From assembly GCF_018771565.1 (NCBI RefSeq), contig NZ_CP076326.1, positions 3,231,785 through 3,295,784 on the forward strand: a DNA stretch of 64,000 bases, written 5' to 3'. Position numbers and translations under genes: made by a program. Every line of letters begins with the position of its first letter. Position 1 is the stretch's first letter. This document shows positions 2,592-13,054 of this stretch, piece after piece. The DNA comes from Thermoflexus hugenholtzii (GTDB lineage: Bacteria > Chloroflexota > Anaerolineae > Thermoflexales > Thermoflexaceae). The notes below the pieces were generated by a model that ran no database searches, had not been told where the DNA came from, and saw only the letters and a program-made list of their open reading frames with translations.

Positions 2592-4100
2592 TTATGTGGG
2601 GGTTTCCACGTCGTCTTCCCCCGGTCCTTCCTCGGGGATCTCTTGGGGGGCGAAGGCCCTCCCGTCCTGCAGCCACCACACCCCCCGCGCCCGGGCCATC
2701 CGCCGCGCCGGCGCCGTCAATTCCTTCGCCGCCACCACCGGGATCACCTCCGCCCCCAGCGCCTGAGCAAAAACGGCCGCCCGCTCCGCCGCCCGAGCCA
2801 CATCCTTCGTCGTCCCCTGCCAGGAGATCTCCACCGCCAGATACATCCGGCGGTCCTCCCGGCGGTGGAAGCCCTCCACCAGGGCGTCCAGGGGGGCGGC
2901 CCGGTCGGCCTCTTCCATCGTGATGCGCCCGGCGGCCACGGCCTCCTCCAGGATCTCGGCCTGCCGCGCGTCCGGGACGATGGCGGCCCGCCGCAGCAGG
3001 GAGCGGAAAAGGACGGCGGGCTTTTCGGCGTAGAGGGCCTCCAGGCGCATCGACTTGAGCTCTCCCAGGTCCCGGCTGTGGTCCTCCTGGCGGCGCTCCA
3101 CCCGGTCCAGGCGAACCTCCACTTGATCCAGGCGGGCCTCCACCCGGTCCACCCGCTCGGTCAGGATCCGGAGGGCTTCAGCCAGCTCGGCGAAGCGGCG
3201 ATCGGTCTCGGCGCGGAACTCCAGGAACTCCTGGCGGTGGGCAATGAACTCCTGACGGTGGGCGATGAACTCCTGACGGTGAGCGGCGAAGGCCTCGGCC
3301 AGGCGCTGGAGAGACTCCTCCGTGCGGCGCTGGGCCTCGGCCAGCTCGGCGAAGCGGCGGTCGGCTTCGGCGCGGAACTCCAGGAACTCCTGGCGATGGG
3401 CGATGAACTCCTGGCGGTGAGCGGCGAAGGCCTCGGCCAGGCGCTGGAGGGACTCCTCCGTGCGGCGCTGGGCCTCGGCCAGCTCGGCGAAGCGACGGTT
3501 GGTTTCCTCTCGATGGGCCAGGAATTCCTGGCGATGGGCGATGAACTCCTGACGGTGAGCGACGAAGGCCTCGGCCAGGCGCTGGAGGGATTCCTCCGTG
3601 CGGCGCTGGGCCTCGGTCAGCTCGGCGAAGCGGCGGTTGGTTTCCTCTCGATGGACCAGGAATTCCTGGCGATGGGCGATGAACTCCTGACGGTGAGCGG
3701 CGAAGGCCTCGGCCAGGCGCTGGAGGGACTCCTCCGTGTGGCGCTGGACCTCGACCAGGCGCTGGAGGAATTCCTCCATGCGGCGCTGGGCCTCGGCCAG
3801 GGCGCGGACCTCTGCGCTGAGCTCTGCGAAGCGGGCGTTGACCTGGGCCTGGTGGGCCAGGAACTCCTGACGATGGTTCACAAAGGCCTCGCTCAGACGG
3901 CGAACGGCTTCTGCCAGCTCCATGAAGCGACGTTCGGTCTCCACCTGAAGCCGGGCCAGCTCGTCCCGAAGATCCGCCAGCCCGGTGGGCATGCGGAGGA
4001 CCTCCTCCGAGGCCAGGAGGGCCCAGAGGACCTTCCGCCATTCGGGGTGGGCCTGCAAGAGGGCGACCAGATCCCGCAGGTCTTCCGCCGTCAGGGCCAT
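2592..4100 (-). CDS. Coiled-coil repeat protein with C-terminal PD-(D/E)XK-like domain (DUF3782-like)
   Basis: The protein has 502 residues. After an N-terminal helical part, residues 120-310 form four near-identical 46-residue heptad-rich units, followed by a further coiled coil (RVDRVEARLDQVEVRLDRVE). The C-terminal ~110 residues hold a compact domain with MYLAVEISWQGTTKDV and EVIPVVAAKE, resembling the PD-(D/E)XK-like domain of DUF3782-type proteins abundant in thermophilic Chloroflexota and cyanobacteria. The usual E-x-K appears as E-x-S (E424), so catalysis is doubtful. No signal peptide is visible. The start has GAAGGAGG upstream. Role unknown. Confidence 0.7.
   Translation of the reverse strand: MALTAEDLRDLVALLQAHPEWRKVLWALLASEEVLRMPTGLADLRDELARLQVETERRFMELAEAVRRLSEAFVNHRQEFLAHQAQVNARFAELSAEVRALAEAQRRMEEFLQRLVEVQRHTEESLQRLAEAFAAHRQEFIAHRQEFLVHREETNRRFAELTEAQRRTEESLQRLAEAFVAHRQEFIAHRQEFLAHREETNRRFAELAEAQRRTEESLQRLAEAFAAHRQEFIAHRQEFLEFRAEADRRFAELAEAQRRTEESLQRLAEAFAAHRQEFIAHRQEFIAHRQEFLEFRAETDRRFAELAEALRILTERVDRVEARLDQVEVRLDRVERRQEDHSRDLGELKSMRLEALYAEKPAVLFRSLLRRAAIVPDARQAEILEEAVAAGRITMEEADRAAPLDALVEGFHRREDRRMYLAVEISWQGTTKDVARAAERAAVFAQALGAEVIPVVAAKELTAPARRMARARGVWWLQDGRAFAPQEIPEEGPGEDDVETPT
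3171..3743 (-). repeat. Four tandem 138-bp in-frame repeats within a coiled-coil gene
   Basis: The repeats encode residues 120-165, 166-211, 212-257 and 258-310 of the protein. Each unit runs R-[RH]-TEESLQRLAEAF through HRQEF, RRFAEL and EAQ. The last copy carries an extra 7-residue duplication (FIAHRQE), giving 53 residues. Near-identity at DNA level suggests recent expansion by unequal exchange or slippage, with the coiled-coil frame preserved. Confidence 0.85.
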
Positions 4101-4730: not shown

Positions 4731-6740
4731 TTAGGGCTCGATCACGGCTTCGGCCAGGATCTCCGCCACATCCCGCACCGGGAGCCGCTCGGCGACGCCC
4801 CGGGTTTGGGCGGCGGAGGTCAACATCAGCTGGCAGAAGGGGCAGGCCACCGCCACCGCCTCCGGGCTCGTCCCCAACGCCTCATCGAGGCGCTGGAGGT
4901 GGATCGGACGGGCCTGGGGGGTGTCCATCCAGACCTGGGCCCCGCCGGCGCCGCAGCAGAACCCCCGCTCCCGGCTCCGGGCCATCTCCACCAGCTCGGT
5001 CCCGCTCCTCTGTAGCAGGTGCCGCGGCGCATCGAAGATCCCGTTGTAACGGCCCAGATAGCAGGAATCGTGGAAGGTGAGCCGCCGGGAGACGGGGCGC
5101 CGGGGCTGGAGGCGGCCTTCCTCCAGCAAGCGGGCCAGGAACTCCGTGTGGTGGACCACCTCGAAGCGCCCGCCGAACTGTGGGTATTCGTTGCGGAAGG
5201 TGTTATAGCAGTGCGGGCACATGGTCAACAGGATACGGAACTGATACGCGCGCAGGGTCTCCAGGATGGCCTCGGTGGCCGCCACATACATCGCCTCGTG
5301 GCCTGCGCGGCGGGCCCACTCGGCCGTGCAGGTTTCTTCATCCCCCAGCACAGCGAAGTCCACCCCTGCGGCCTGGAGCAGGCGGGCGATGGCCCGGGCG
5401 GTGCGCTGGCCGCCGGGATCGAAAGCCCCCGCGCAGCCTACCCAGAAGAGGACCTCCGCCTCCCCCTTCTCCGCCATCACCGGGACGTCCAGGCCCTTCG
5501 CCCATTCCAGGCGGGAGGTCCGTTGCCCCCACGGATTGCCCGTCCGCTCCGTGTTGCGGAACGTGTTGGAGAGGGAGGCCGGGACATTCCCTTCCATCAG
5601 GGTCAGGTAGCGCCGCATGCCCACAATGAGGTCCACATGCTCGATCAGCACCGGGCATTCGTGAACACAGGCGTAGCAGGTGGTGCAGGCCCACAGGGCC
5701 TCGCGCGGGGTCACCGCCCCAGTTAGGACGATGCGTTCCTCATCCACCCGGATGGGGGCGAAGGGGTTCAAGGTGGGCGGCAGCAGGGCGTGGAGGGTGT
5801 TCCGCACGTCCAGCACCACCTGCTTGGGGTTGAGGGGCGTCCCGGCCGCATACGCCGGGCATGCCGCCTGACACCGGCCGCATTCCGTGCAGGCCTCCCC
5901 GTTGAGCAGCTGCACCCAGGTCAGATCCCGCAACGTCTCGATGCCCAGCCGTTCTGCTGTCTCCAGGTCCGGGATCGGCGTCAGGGCCCCGTTGGGCCGG
6001 TCCAGGCGGGAGAAGAACACGTTGAGGGTGGAGGAGACGATGTGGACCAGGAAGCCCACCGGGATGAAGACGTAGGTGAGGCCGGCCAGGGCAGCGTGGA
6101 AGGTCCAGGTCGCCTGATGGAGGGGCCGTAGGAATTCTTCCCCCAGGCCCATGGCGATCCAGAGCTGGCCCAACCCCCATCCCATAAAGGAAGCGGGCCC
6201 CCAGGGGGGGCGCTGCACAGCCATGCGGAAGGATTCCAGGAGCCAGCCGGTGACGATGAGGACGGTCAGCCAGGCCAGGGCCAGGTCGAAGCGGCGGCCG
6301 TAGCTCAGCTTAGGCGGGCGGGCAGCGTATCGACGCCACGCGAGGACCCCCATCCCAATCAGGGCGAGCAGGGTGAAGAGATCCAGCACGAACTCATAGA
6401 CCAGATAGATCTCCCCCCGCAGGAACTTGAACAGGTCCGCGTCGATGAAGGCCAGGGTGGTCCCGATGAAGAAGATCACGAACCCCCAGAACAGCGAGGC
6501 GTGGGAGAGGCCCCCAACGGGGTCCCGAATCACCCGGCGCTGCCCCAGGACGTAGATCAGGACCCGTTTCAGGCGCTCCGGAAGGCGATCGAAGCGCATC
6601 TCCGGCCGGCCGACGGCCCACCAGATCCGAATGCGTCGATAAAAGGAAAGAAGGAAGATGGCCAGACAGAGGGCGTGGAAGGCGTAGACGGCTGGCTGGG
6701 CCCATGCGGGCATGTTCCAGAGGTTGATCCGCTCGGGCAT
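4731..6740 (-). CDS. Membrane-bound HdrD/GlpC-type Fe-S oxidoreductase
   Basis: The protein has 669 residues. Residues ~1-250 hold about six membrane segments with conserved histidines, as in NarI-like b-heme modules. Two [4Fe-4S] motifs follow, CTECGRCQAACP and CTTCYACVHECP. Two cysteine-rich CCG-type domains come next; the second ends in GFCCGAGGAQVW, while the first has a looser version. This architecture matches the HdrD-like membrane oxidoreductases that pass electrons between soluble flavoproteins such as ETF and the quinone pool. No etf genes are adjacent, so the partner is inferred. The gene is divergent from the fluoride operon. Confidence 0.85.
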   Translation of the reverse strand: MPERINLWNMPAWAQPAVYAFHALCLAIFLLSFYRRIRIWWAVGRPEMRFDRLPERLKRVLIYVLGQRRVIRDPVGGLSHASLFWGFVIFFIGTTLAFIDADLFKFLRGEIYLVYEFVLDLFTLLALIGMGVLAWRRYAARPPKLSYGRRFDLALAWLTVLIVTGWLLESFRMAVQRPPWGPASFMGWGLGQLWIAMGLGEEFLRPLHQATWTFHAALAGLTYVFIPVGFLVHIVSSTLNVFFSRLDRPNGALTPIPDLETAERLGIETLRDLTWVQLLNGEACTECGRCQAACPAYAAGTPLNPKQVVLDVRNTLHALLPPTLNPFAPIRVDEERIVLTGAVTPREALWACTTCYACVHECPVLIEHVDLIVGMRRYLTLMEGNVPASLSNTFRNTERTGNPWGQRTSRLEWAKGLDVPVMAEKGEAEVLFWVGCAGAFDPGGQRTARAIARLLQAAGVDFAVLGDEETCTAEWARRAGHEAMYVAATEAILETLRAYQFRILLTMCPHCYNTFRNEYPQFGGRFEVVHHTEFLARLLEEGRLQPRRPVSRRLTFHDSCYLGRYNGIFDAPRHLLQRSGTELVEMARSRERGFCCGAGGAQVWMDTPQARPIHLQRLDEALGTSPEAVAVACPFCQLMLTSAAQTRGVAERLPVRDVAEILAEAVIEP

Positions 6741-6849: not shown

Positions 6850-6878
6850 TTGGACAGTGCAGGAAGATTGGGTATAGA
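6850..6878 (+). promoter_or_regulatory. Promoter of the fluoride-responsive operon
   Basis: TTGGAC at 6850-6855 and TATAGA at 6873-6878 are separated by 17 bases, a good fit to a housekeeping sigma-70-type promoter. The predicted transcription start near 6885 lies just upstream of the first riboswitch helix at 6898, as expected for a switch at the very 5' end of the mRNA. Confidence 0.7.
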
Positions 6879-6897
6879 ATAATACGCAGGAACGAAT

Positions 6898-6992
6898 CCG
6901 GCGATGAGGCTCGCCGGGCGGGGATCCCCGCGAACTGCCATGCGAAGCATGGCTGATAGCCTCTATCCCGAAAGCGGGATAGAGGCTTTTTT
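6898..6992 (+). promoter_or_regulatory. Fluoride (crcB-type) riboswitch with terminator platform
   Basis: The core matches the fluoride aptamer closely. P1 is CCGGCGA/TCGCCGG (6898-6904/6911-6917) closing the loop TGAGGC. A GAAC linker follows, then helix GCCATGC/GCATGGC (6937-6943/6947-6953), then TGATAGCCTCTA. The pseudoknot pairs GAGGC (6906-6910) with GCCTC (6959-6963). From memory, the crystallised Thermotoga aptamer shares GGCGATGAGGC, AACTGCC and GGCTGATgGCCTCTA. The GCCTC strand is also the 5' arm of a terminator, so fluoride binding should block termination and switch expression on. An additional hairpin at 6918-6931 is inserted between P1 and the linker. Expression target: the six genes from 7009 to 10987. 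Confidence 0.93.
6959..6992 (+). terminator. Intrinsic terminator of the fluoride riboswitch
   Basis: A perfect 12-bp stem (6959-6970/6975-6986) with an AAAG loop is followed directly by six T (6987-6992). The first five stem bases are the same bases that form the aptamer pseudoknot, so the two structures are mutually exclusive. It ends 16 bases before the first start codon. Confidence 0.92.
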
Positions 6993-7008
6993 GTTGGAGG
7001 GTCAACGG

Positions 7009-7770
7009 ATGAGCTGGGGTCTGGCGGTTTTGCAGCATGCGATGCGACAGCCGGGCTGCCCGCTGTGTCGTCTGCAGCGGGAGGCGGAGGCGCGTTACCT
7101 GGAGAACCTGCTCTGGGAGAACGTGAACGATCCGGCCACGCGGGAGCAGTGGGCGGCCGGCCTGGGGTTCTGTGCGCGGCACGCCTGGCAGCTGCAGCGC
7201 CTGGAGGCCCGCCGCTACGGGGATGGGTTGGGGAACGCCATCCTGTATGAGGATCTCCTGCAGCGGGTGATCCCCGTCCTGGAGGCGATGGCCCGGGAGC
7301 CAGCCATGGATCCGCTCCCCCTCCACCGGCGGCTGGCTCACGCCCTCCGTCTTCCCCGCTCAGGGGATCCCGAAGGGATCCCCGGCTTGCAGGGGCGGGC
7401 GCGCTGTCGGGTGTGCCGACTGGGGGAGGAGACCGCGCGGGCGTATGCGGAATGGCTGGTCGAAGGGCTGGAGGACGCTGAGGTTCGGGCGCGCTACGCG
7501 GCTTCGGATGGGCTGTGCCTGCCTCACCTGCGGATGGCCCTGATCTGCGCCCGCGCGCGTGCCCCCCACGCTCTGGCGGATCTGGCCGGCGACGCCGCCC
7601 GACGCCTTCAACGTCTGCTCGGAGCGCTGCGGGAATACATCCGCAAGCACGACTGGAACTATCGCCATGAGCCGATGAGCCCGGAGGAGCGCCGTTCGTG
7701 GATCCGGGCGGTCGCCTTCTTCGTCGGGGAGGGAGAAGGGGATGGTTCGCTGGACGATCGAGGTGGATGA
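7009..7770 (+). CDS. Cys/His-rich DUF6062-like protein, first gene of the fluoride operon
   Basis: This 253-residue soluble protein is built of two similar halves, each with CxxC followed by CxxH. The first half has C17/C20 (GCPLC) and C55/H58 (GFCARH). The second has C133/C136 (RCRVC) and C170/H173 (GLCLPH). This suggests two zinc or thiol sites; the CPLC...GFC.RH pattern resembles DUF6062-type proteins of unknown function. I chose the ATG at 7009 because GGAGGG lies 7-12 bases upstream and the longer open frame runs through the riboswitch and terminator. It is the gene directly under fluoride control; its biochemical role is unknown. Confidence 0.75.
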   Translation: MSWGLAVLQHAMRQPGCPLCRLQREAEARYLENLLWENVNDPATREQWAAGLGFCARHAWQLQRLEARRYGDGLGNAILYEDLLQRVIPVLEAMAREPAMDPLPLHRRLAHALRLPRSGDPEGIPGLQGRARCRVCRLGEETARAYAEWLVEGLEDAEVRARYAASDGLCLPHLRMALICARARAPHALADLAGDAARRLQRLLGALREYIRKHDWNYRHEPMSPEERRSWIRAVAFFVGEGEGDGSLDDRGG

Positions 7771-8179
7771 GGAGACCGCGCAGCGCTGGCAGGCCCTTTG
7801 GGCGTCCCGGGGCCTGAGCCCCACGGAGGGTTTGCTCTTCTTCCTGGGGCTGGGAGCCGCGTATGCGGAGGGTCAGGCGGTCCTCTCCGGGGTGGCCGCC
7901 GGGACCCATTCCGCGGAGGAGGTGGAGCGCCTGATCCGGCGCCTGGTGGAGCTCGAAGGACGCCACGCGGTGGTGAGGTTCCGGCTCTTCCAGTGCGAGC
8001 AGGCCCTCCAGCGCTGGGAGCTCAGCCATGGGGCCATTGAGACCATGAGCACCGGGCTACAGGAGGTGGTCCGCCGCCTCCGGGAGGAGAACGCCCAGCT
8101 TCGCGAGGCCTTGCGCCGTCTGCAGGGGGACTCGGCGGCCGGGGCGATGGATCCCGGAGGCGGAGCGGGTGGAGCCTGA
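7742..8179 (+). CDS. Small RHH-like/coiled-coil protein A
   Basis: This 145-residue protein has no family I recognise. The N-terminus (WTIEVDEETAQRW...LSPTEG) looks like a beta-strand plus two helices, as in ribbon-helix-helix proteins. Residues ~60-130 form a coiled coil ending ENAQLREALRRL, then a Gly-rich tail. It overlaps the previous gene by 29 bases, so translation is probably coupled. It shares layout and scattered identities (VxRfRxF; NAxLRxxLR) with the sixth gene of the same operon, suggesting a paralogous pair. DNA binding is only an inference. Confidence 0.7.
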   Translation: MVRWTIEVDEETAQRWQALWASRGLSPTEGLLFFLGLGAAYAEGQAVLSGVAAGTHSAEEVERLIRRLVELEGRHAVVRFRLFQCEQALQRWELSHGAIETMSTGLQEVVRRLREENAQLREALRRLQGDSAAGAMDPGGGAGGA

Positions 8180-8200
8180 ACGTCCGGCGGGGGGCGCGAG

Positions 8201-8701
8201 ATGGAACGAATCACCCGGTTCTGTCCGGAGTGCTGGGCGGAGCTGCCCGCGGCGGAGCAGGCGGTTTGCCCGGCCTGTGGGGCTTCCCTGACGGAGGAGC
8301 GCGATTTCTTTGAGAAGCTGCTCCGTGCCCTCTGGCATCCGGAGCGGACCCGGGCGGCGACCGCGGCGGCCATCCTGGGGCAGCTGGGGGATCCGCGGGC
8401 GGTGCCGCCTTTGATTGAGGTGGCGCTCCACGCCCGGGATTTCGGCGTCCAGGAGGCTGCGGTGCGCAGCCTGGGGCGTCTGCGGGATCCGCGGGCGATC
8501 CCCGCCCTGGCGTTGCTGTTGCGGATGGAGAGCCCCCTCCCTGTGCGCCTGGCGGCGGTGGAGGCCCTGGCGGCCTTTGATGATCCTCGAGCCCGGGAAG
8601 CCCTGCGGGGCGCGCTGAACGACCCCTCCGGGGTAGTGCGGCAGGCGGCCCGGGAAGCGTGGAAAGCCGGTTCCCACCTGGTGAGCCAGGAGGAGGGATG
8701 A
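8201..8701 (+). CDS. Zinc-ribbon HEAT-repeat protein
   Basis: The protein has 166 residues. The N-terminus has a double-Cys zinc ribbon (FCPECWAEL ... VCPACGASL), and residues ~40-160 form about four HEAT-like helical repeats with the recurring phrase DPRAxPxLxxxL. Such proteins usually act as scaffolds or lyase-like PBS/HEAT adaptors; no enzyme motif is seen. It is the third gene of the fluoride operon, 21 bases after the previous stop and 1 base before the next start, so it is almost certainly co-expressed with the MFS transporter. Confidence 0.75.
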   Translation: MERITRFCPECWAELPAAEQAVCPACGASLTEERDFFEKLLRALWHPERTRAATAAAILGQLGDPRAVPPLIEVALHARDFGVQEAAVRSLGRLRDPRAIPALALLLRMESPLPVRLAAVEALAAFDDPRAREALRGALNDPSGVVRQAAREAWKAGSHLVSQEEG

Positions 8702-8702
8702 G

Positions 8703-9890
8703 ATGAGGACCATCGCGGCCTGGTTCTCCGCTCGTCCCGCGCTTCGCTTTGTGATCTGGATCGGAGTCCTCAGCCTCCTGGCAGATGTGACCTATGAGGG
8801 AGGACGGAGCATCGCGGGTTCCTATCTGGCCGTCCTGGGGGCCACCGGCACCGTGGTGGGCCTGATCGCTGGGATGGGGGAGCTGGCAGGGTATGGAAGC
8901 CGCCTGCTTTCCGGAGTTTTGAGCGATCGGCTTCAACGGCTGTGGCTGTTCATGTGGATAGGTTATTTCGTCAACCTTGTGGCGATCCCCTTGCTGGCTC
9001 TGGCCGGCCGTTGGGAGATCGCGGCAGCGCTTCTGATCTTAGAGCGGATCGGCAAAGGGATCCGCACCCCTGTTCGGGATGTGATGCTCTCTTACGCCTC
9101 CGGCGTTGTGGGACGTGGATGGGCTTTCGGCCTCCATGAGGCGCTGGATCAAATCGGAGCGGTTCTGGGGCCCGTGATCGTGGCAGCGATGCTCCTGCGA
9201 ACGTCGTCTTACCCATCTGCTTTCGGCATCCTGGCGATCCCTGCCGGAATGGCTCTCCTCGTCCTCCTTCGCGCGCATTTGGCTTATTCGCATCCTCAGC
9301 GGATGGAGCCGATAGGGCCCAGGAAGCCTTCGCAGGCCTTTTCGCGTGCTTTCTGGCTTTATCTGGCCGGAGTGGCCTTGCTGGCTGCAGGGTATGTGGA
9401 TTTCGCCCTCATCGCCTTCCACCTGGAGCGAGGCGCTCGGGTGGCTCGACCCTGGATCCCTATCGCTTACGCGCTGGCGATGGGTGTGGATGCGCTGGCG
9501 GCCCTCGTCCTGGGATGGGCCTATGAACGTCGGGGAGTACGGGTGCTGAGGGATGCGATAATGCTTTCGGCCATGGCGGCCCCTCTGATCTTTCTGGGAG
9601 ATCCGTTCCTGGTCATCGCCGGGGTGGTTTTGTGGGGGATCGGCACAGGCGCCCAGGAATCGATCCTGCGAGCGATCATCGCGGCGCAGATCCCCCGGAG
9701 CCGCCGGGGAACCGCTTATGGTCTCTTCTACCTGGTTTACGGAACGGCCTGGATGCTGGGAAGCGTTTTGCTGGGATGGCTCTACGACCGATCCGTTCCG
9801 GTCATGGCCGGTGTCTCCGCAGGGTTGCAAATCGGCGCCATCGGGGTGCTTGCCCTCGAGCAAACAGTTGAAGACTTCAATCTGAGATGA
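8703..9890 (+). CDS. MFS transporter in the fluoride operon (candidate fluoride exporter)
   Basis: This 395-residue, 12-TM major facilitator protein has SGVLSDRLQR between TM2 and TM3 and a conserved ERIGKGIRTPVRDVMLS segment near TM4. The latter recalls MFS members annotated in many thermophiles without known substrate. It begins immediately after the HEAT-repeat gene. Because the operon is preceded by a fluoride riboswitch and has no crcB or CLC-F gene, the MFS protein is the natural candidate to export fluoride or an associated ion; this is inference. Base composition looks slightly less GC-rich than its neighbours, which may mean a different origin. Confidence 0.85.
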   Translation: MRTIAAWFSARPALRFVIWIGVLSLLADVTYEGGRSIAGSYLAVLGATGTVVGLIAGMGELAGYGSRLLSGVLSDRLQRLWLFMWIGYFVNLVAIPLLALAGRWEIAAALLILERIGKGIRTPVRDVMLSYASGVVGRGWAFGLHEALDQIGAVLGPVIVAAMLLRTSSYPSAFGILAIPAGMALLVLLRAHLAYSHPQRMEPIGPRKPSQAFSRAFWLYLAGVALLAAGYVDFALIAFHLERGARVARPWIPIAYALAMGVDALAALVLGWAYERRGVRVLRDAIMLSAMAAPLIFLGDPFLVIAGVVLWGIGTGAQESILRAIIAAQIPRSRRGTAYGLFYLVYGTAWMLGSVLLGWLYDRSVPVMAGVSAGLQIGAIGVLALEQTVEDFNLR

Positions 9891-9943
9891 GAAAACGCCC
9901 TGGGCTTCAAAAGGAATCCTCTCCATCCGGAGGTGAGAAAGCG

Positions 9944-10474
9944 ATGAATCTGTGGAAGGATCTTCTGCCCGGACCGGATGTGCCCCATATGATCCATGTG
10001 GTGGTGGAGATCCCCAAGGGATCTCGGAATAAATATGAGTTCGACAAATCGACGGGCCTGCTCCGCCTCGATCGGGTTCTTTATTCCCCCATTCACTATC
10101 CGGGGGATTACGGCCTGATTCCTCGAACCCTTTATGAGGACGGAGATCCTCTGGATGTTCTGGTGATGGTCACGGAGCCGACGTTCCCGGGGTGCATCAT
10201 CGTGGCGCGGCCCATCGGATTGTTTCGGATGATGGATCGGGAGGTGCCGGATGATAAGATCCTGGCGGTCCCTGCCATGGACCCGCTGTTCCAGGATTAC
10301 CACGATATCTCGGACATCCCCCAGCATTTCCTCCGAGAGGTTGCGCATTTCTTCGCGGTCTACAAGGATCTGGAGGGCGGGCGGGTGCGGACGCTGGGGT
10401 GGGAGAACGCGGATCGGGCCAGGGAGCGGATCCTTCACGCCGTCCGGCTTTACGCGGCGCGCGAAGGGGGGTGA
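9944..10474 (+). CDS. ppa: Inorganic pyrophosphatase, family I
   Basis: The protein has 176 residues, the normal length of soluble family I pyrophosphatase. It catalyses pyrophosphate + water to two phosphates, pulling biosynthetic reactions forward. Diagnostic segments are EIPKGSRNKYEFDK, the signature-like DGDPLDVLVM and DREVPDDKILAVP, which contain the metal-binding acidic residues. Family I enzymes are Mg-dependent and classically inhibited by fluoride, so its place in a fluoride-switched operon makes sense. I chose the ATG at 9944 with GGAGG upstream over an in-frame ATG at 9887. The 53-base gap after the MFS gene shows no terminator. Confidence 0.95.
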   Translation: MNLWKDLLPGPDVPHMIHVVVEIPKGSRNKYEFDKSTGLLRLDRVLYSPIHYPGDYGLIPRTLYEDGDPLDVLVMVTEPTFPGCIIVARPIGLFRMMDREVPDDKILAVPAMDPLFQDYHDISDIPQHFLREVAHFFAVYKDLEGGRVRTLGWENADRARERILHAVRLYAAREGG

Positions 10475-10567
10475 AGGACCCCAACCGGTGGAGGCCGCGG
10501 CGGGATGATCGCCGGAGGATTCGCTTCCGGGGCCCGGAACTGAGCCCATTGAGGAGGGAAGGCAGGG

Positions 10568-13054
<2,487 letters not shown>

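Follow-up and report, generated by a model that had tools for sequence, protein, structure and literature searches.

The window, a stretch of 64,000 nucleotides from Thermoflexus hugenholtzii (contig NZ_CP076326.1), belongs to a genome that consists of one contig and is 98.6% complete. On its forward strand, six genes at positions 7009-10987, presumably co-transcribed as an operon, encode in this order a DUF6062 protein, ORF2, a zinc-ribbon and HEAT-repeat protein, an MFS carrier, an inorganic pyrophosphatase and ORF6. The first gene (7009-7770, 253 aa) encodes a clear member of the DUF6062 family (PF19538, 66.5 bits against a cut-off of 27) and is preceded by the ribosome-binding site GGAGGG at 6996-7001. 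ORF2 (7742-8179, 145 aa) gave no family match, and its C-terminus looks coiled-coil-like by eye. The zinc-ribbon and HEAT-repeat protein (8201-8701; PF13646, PF18912) recurs in fluoride-riboswitch loci, while the MFS carrier (8703-9890; PF07690, 79.6 bits against a cut-off of 33.4) is a candidate fluoride exporter. The soluble inorganic pyrophosphatase (9887-10474) scored 192.7 bits with PF00719 and matched a PDB entry with an E-value of 2.9e-70. ORF6 (10568-10987) is the probable end of the operon and is followed by the convergent gene pyrG (10984-12672, reverse strand). ORF2 and ORF6 look mutually related, in that both match the same genes at other loci, and relatives of the two were found at further DUF6062 or fluoride loci (L145, L151, L152, L155, L162, L167 and L181). 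Elsewhere in the window, a reverse-strand gene at 2592-4100 encodes a protein of 502 aa with numerous heptad-like repeats that are nearly identical (EESLQRLAEAFAAHRQEF) and differ in copy number in a congener (L032).

A cmscan search of the window against Rfam (4227 families) identified a fluoride riboswitch aptamer (RF01734) upstream of the operon, at 6891-6972 on the forward strand, with 35.0 bits and an E-value of 5.8e-6. The preliminary description, made from the letters alone, had already named a fluoride riboswitch here, and the Rfam model bears this out with a score that is barely above the gathering cut-off of 34. The low score is explained by a 14-nt hairpin (6918-6931) that is inserted between P1 and P3. 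No other match to RF01734 was obtained in the whole genome (single contig, 3.3 Mb). The aptamer was also detected, with 29.6 bits and an E-value of 6e-6 over 798 kb, by model R1, for which 23 short fluoride aptamers from the class were used and the window sequence was left out.

The P1 stem-loop (6898-6917), in which the core GGCG at 6900-6903 pairs with CGCC at 6912-6915, and the P3 stem-loop (6937-6953) were both recovered by cmscan and by folding, and P1 covaries in the class alignment. The optional hairpin between them, GCGGGGATCCCCGC (6918-6931), was predicted by folding; congeners keep its stem, and the length of its loop varies. The first pseudoknot strand, GAGGCT (6906-6911), is complementary to the second, AGCCTC (6958-6963), which doubles as part of the 5' arm of an intrinsic terminator. 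The pairing of GAGGC (6906-6910) with GCCTC (6959-6963) proposed earlier is thus found in place, but the pseudoknot has six pairs rather than five, all of them Watson-Crick. The terminator (6958-6992) consists of the hairpin AGCCTCTATCCCG-AAAG-CGGGATAGAGGCT at 6958-6987 and a T run to 6992, and its stem, which starts with GCCTC as the preliminary description had it, can be read either as 12 bp followed by six T or as 13 bp. The minimum-energy fold contains P1, the inserted hairpin, P3 and the 13-bp terminator followed by the Ts, with a folding z-score of -6.7 and none of 200 shuffled sequences folding equally well. The features by which RF01734 is recognised, namely P1 and P3 with the conserved core, a long-range pseudoknot between the P1 loop and a 3' strand, and a terminator that shares the pseudoknot strand, are all present in the window. 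An open reading frame at 6904-7770, which begins inside the aptamer, was rejected as the true start of the DUF6062 gene: the residues MSWG encoded from 7009 are conserved and preceded by the ribosome-binding site, and the 5' part of the longer frame is the riboswitch.

A putative sigma-70-like promoter, TGGACA-18-TAGAAT (6851-6880, forward strand), was located by consensus scan only, with agreement at 10 of 12 positions, and some congeners also show a -10-like A/T-rich element. Transcription from this promoter would begin a few bases 5' of the aptamer, in agreement with the promoter placement described previously. The upstream gene (4731-6740, reverse strand) is divergent, and the terminator thereby lies downstream of the promoter but ahead of the operon's first gene, where it makes sense only as an attenuator.

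In the alignment of the 23 class aptamers, 99.6% of the cells are paired, and 7 of the 12 pairs in P1, P3 and the pseudoknot change on both sides; none of 500 shuffles was as good, and structures slid along the alignment paired in 35-54%. The 5-bp core of the pseudoknot (6906-6910 with 6959-6963), a helix that is not part of the Rfam model, is paired in 100% of the cells of the 23 sequences and includes three covarying pairs. Among the 67 class sites covered by our script, pseudoknot and terminator were both found in 26, and each of these 26 has a terminator arm that includes all five nucleotides of the pseudoknot strand. Over seven Thermoflexus genomes, almost no change is seen in the aptamer core, the terminator stem and the T run, whereas the flanks on the promoter side and the loops of the inserted hairpin and of the terminator are variable, which argues that the window RNA is more than a chance resemblance.

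The sixth, top pair of the pseudoknot (6911 with 6958) is a Watson-Crick U-A pair in all seven Thermoflexus sequences and a U-G pair in many other members of the class; the U-A pair could be an adaptation to heat. A wobble at this position matters for switching in the constructs studied previously (PMC11077080), and the window differs from these in this respect. In Ca. Thermoflexus sinensis (G102, L125:520-737), the hairpin that separates P1 from P3 is about 40 nt larger, and the Rfam score is lowered to 29 as a result, so that the riboswitch is missed by a default search. At two other loci (G006:C35:2479-2637 and L147:2559-2797), fluoride riboswitches on opposite strands point away from each other, each towards an operon of its own.

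Taken on its sequence features, the segment 6891-6992 is very probably a fluoride-ON riboswitch that acts by transcription termination. The nascent RNA would fold into P1, P3 and the pseudoknot (6906-6911 with 6958-6963), which fluoride and Mg2+ would lock, so that the terminator arm would be unavailable and the polymerase would read into the operon. In the absence of fluoride, the pseudoknot would give way to the terminator hairpin and transcription would stop at the T run near position 6992. A pseudoknot that overlaps the base of the terminator and is locked by fluoride is the published mechanism of such riboswitches (PMC11077080; PMC13273304), and the earlier label of a textbook case is apt in this sense. 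In the window, the pseudoknot alone excludes formation of the terminator. The covariance model, the covarying pseudoknot and stems, the overlap with the terminator and the position before an operon all point to the fluoride-ON reading that had been proposed.

Alternatively, the window RNA could be a degenerate relative of the fluoride aptamer, with a hairpin that terminates or attenuates transcription constitutively, independently of fluoride. Such a loss of function would fit the low Rfam score as well as the stability of the terminator, which is -24.4 kcal/mol at 37 C compared to about -8.7 for the pseudoknot duplex. However, the score is accounted for by the inserted hairpin, and a terminator that is more stable than the pseudoknot is usual for fluoride riboswitches, in which switching is kinetic (PMC11077080). 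Moreover, the pseudoknot, a helix outside the Rfam model, is intact in the window and covaries in the class, and the aptamer core and pseudoknot have stayed nearly invariant over the seven genomes while flanks and loops diverged. We therefore consider a degenerate aptamer highly improbable and retain the fluoride-ON riboswitch.

The window element is a further example of a known riboswitch class, and the new part is the set of downstream genes. Like the terminating type of the crcB RNA motif (RF01734) in Bacillus cereus crcB and Thermotoga petrophila, it has P1, P3, the pseudoknot and the conserved core nucleotides, with a pseudoknot strand that forms the base of an intrinsic terminator (PMC11077080). 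It differs from that type by the extra hairpin between P1 and P3 and by an operon without a crcB or CLC-F gene. The known fluoride regulon comprises the Fluc/CrcB or CLC-F exporters, Na+/H+ antiporters, pyrophosphatase and enolase (PMC11139923), of which the pyrophosphatase is found in the window too. This enzyme is inhibited by fluoride and is a known partner of fluoride riboswitches (PMC11139923). In relatives from the same class, genes for CrcB, CLC-F, an antiporter, CBS/Usp and MutS-like proteins are located behind the fluoride riboswitch. The fluoride-regulon partners named in the portion of PMC11139923 available to us do not include DUF6062, the zinc-ribbon and HEAT-repeat protein, ORF2/ORF6 or the MFS subfamily of the window. 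Within the class, the riboswitches are most often followed by MutS-like genes arranged in tandem pairs (28 genes in 15 genomes, e.g., G089:C63:103774, G081:C78:3228 and G206:C262:13547), and genes for dynamin-like and MoxR proteins also recur behind these riboswitches.

In contrast to the known fluoride regulon, both known exporters are absent from the genome of the window. No Fluc/CrcB protein (PF02537) and no CLC protein (PF00654) was detected in it by searches that were positive in 10 and 12, respectively, of 14 control genomes. Nor was CrcB detected in any of the nine members of the genus included in the class search, the window genome among them. Three congeners (G010, G078 and G122) have a CLC, and within the genus the presence of a CLC coincides exactly with the absence of the operon MFS. 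Classification as CLC-F is based on PF00654 together with the motifs GNNLI/GMGLI, GREGT/V and GEVTP (PMC11139923). These motifs are absent from the CLCs of G078 and G122, which have EMPGV, GPEDPS and GGVFAP instead, and the CLC of G010 (L126:3534-5232) lies in two frames next to a transposase-like ORF and is apparently broken. By contrast, the CLCs of two other members of the class (G099 and G274), which are located directly behind a fluoride riboswitch, carry GNNLL and GEITP. A CLC that replaces the MFS as exporter was thus rejected, since the congener CLCs lack the CLC-F motifs and one of them is frame-broken. According to a review, no more than two kinds of fluoride exporter are known from bacteria, and the species that lack them are mostly reduced symbionts (PMC11139923). 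Thermoflexus does not fit this pattern, being a thermophilic hot-spring genus that apparently lives without either known exporter.

We compared the genomic contexts of 48 members of the MFS subfamily, defined as relatives with at least about 45% identity and counted with the window MFS included. A crcB gene was found within 8 kb of 15 members, a fluoride riboswitch within 8 kb of 15 and a DUF6062 gene within 8 kb of 9, and 25 of the 48 are located near one of these three. From this gene context, we tentatively propose that the carrier exports fluoride, as a possibility that we rate at somewhat below even chance. It is fairly probable that the carrier instead exports another cargo, such as a drug, a metabolite or an ion for pH balance, and that fluoride is dealt with by means other than export. 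MFS proteins form a very broad family, the nearest solved structure, NorA, is only weakly similar (E 8e-4), and the remaining 23 subfamily members have no fluoride context; in addition, the congeners without the MFS retain the rest of the operon. Such a cargo is less easily reconciled with the 15 members near crcB and the 15 near a fluoride riboswitch, with the subfamily MFS that lies directly behind the riboswitch in G277, and with a host that lacks both known exporters. Four Thermoflexus genomes (G000, G046, G102 and G175) have the operon MFS and three (G010, G078 and G122) do not, and in these three neither CrcB nor a CLC with CLC-F motifs was detected. The MFS, if it does export fluoride, can therefore not be the sole answer for the genus. 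Elsewhere in the genome, a second MFS paralogue (G000:C1:1550589-1551677), 49% identical and kept across the genus, is located between genes for a Clp ATPase and a threonine-synthase-like protein, where no fluoride context was seen.

To our knowledge, DUF6062 is a family without an assigned function. Eleven positions are invariant in 60 members (G16, C17, C20, C55, H58, C133, C136, G168, C170, H173 and L192). The protein has two CxxC...CxxH sets, the arrangement expected of a metal-binding module that has been duplicated, and these residue patterns suggest that it binds metal. Structure prediction gave a confident, all-helical model (pLDDT 89.4, pTM 0.82). Comparison of this fold to solved structures gave nothing significant, with a best Foldseek E-value of 1.4 and a best VIA Z-score of 4.4 over 47 residues, and a sequence search for solved relatives found none. 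An assignment of function by fold was abandoned, the top structural matches being uninformative for a helical protein. No mention of DUF6062 or of its link to fluoride was found in the literature searched, although the family may have been listed elsewhere under another name.

DUF6062 is the constant first gene behind the switch in the seven Thermoflexus genomes, and in the class as a whole it is located behind fluoride riboswitches in many families. We scanned 84,980 species genomes with a tighter DUF6062 alignment, alignment A1 being too diverse for a search of the collection, and obtained 70 DUF6062 loci. A riboswitch on the same strand was detected at most 400 nt upstream in 24 loci and within 5 kb in another 14, while 32 had no detected riboswitch. 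The query was built from riboswitch-linked members and favours their subfamily, so that the linked fraction is inflated, but not the link itself. The Rfam model confirms the riboswitch at loci labelled Bipolaricaulota (54.9 bits), Bacillota (42.2 bits), Clostridiales (41.7 bits), Armatimonadetes (38.1 bits) and Thermomicrobium (37.8 bits); the group labels of the DUF6062 loci, including Bipolaricaulota, Armatimonadota and Bacillota, are unchecked titles of MAG records. Genes for zinc-ribbon and HEAT-repeat, MutS-like, NhaP, CBS/Usp, dynamin, MoxR and CrcB proteins are also found at the DUF6062 loci.

This gene context suggests that DUF6062 is probably a fluoride-response family. The linkage would mean less if DUF6062 were a general neighbour or stress gene without a fluoride-specific role, as the 32 loci without a detectable riboswitch and the query bias towards the linked subfamily might indicate. 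Yet in 38 of the 70 loci a riboswitch lies on the same strand at most 5 kb upstream, whereas by our estimate (about 67 sites in 298 class genomes of about 4 Mb) far fewer than one chance linkage is expected. The link also persists with varied partners (MutS-like, NhaP, dynamin, MoxR, CrcB and MFS proteins) and in MAGs labelled as several phyla. We consider a general neighbour rather unlikely and favour a fluoride-response family, although the 32 loci without a riboswitch mean that DUF6062 may have other roles as well.

We infer that the operon in the window responds to fluoride, and its genes can be assigned provisional roles. It would make up the response to fluoride in a Thermoflexus with neither of the known bacterial exporters; in this response, the pyrophosphatase would restore the step inhibited by fluoride and the MFS carrier would be the likeliest exporter. 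DUF6062 and the HEAT-repeat protein may work as a pair in the cytoplasm, in defence or regulation, and probably have metal sites. The more far-reaching proposal, that Thermoflexus resists fluoride without Fluc or CLC-F by means of a third kind of exporter, the MFS, and of a widespread multi-phylum defence module consisting of DUF6062 and the zinc-ribbon and HEAT-repeat protein, is speculative, and we rate it as unlikely in this full form. A validated riboswitch reveals which genes answer to fluoride, and here it would mark DUF6062 and an MFS subfamily as fluoride-response genes across several bacterial groups.
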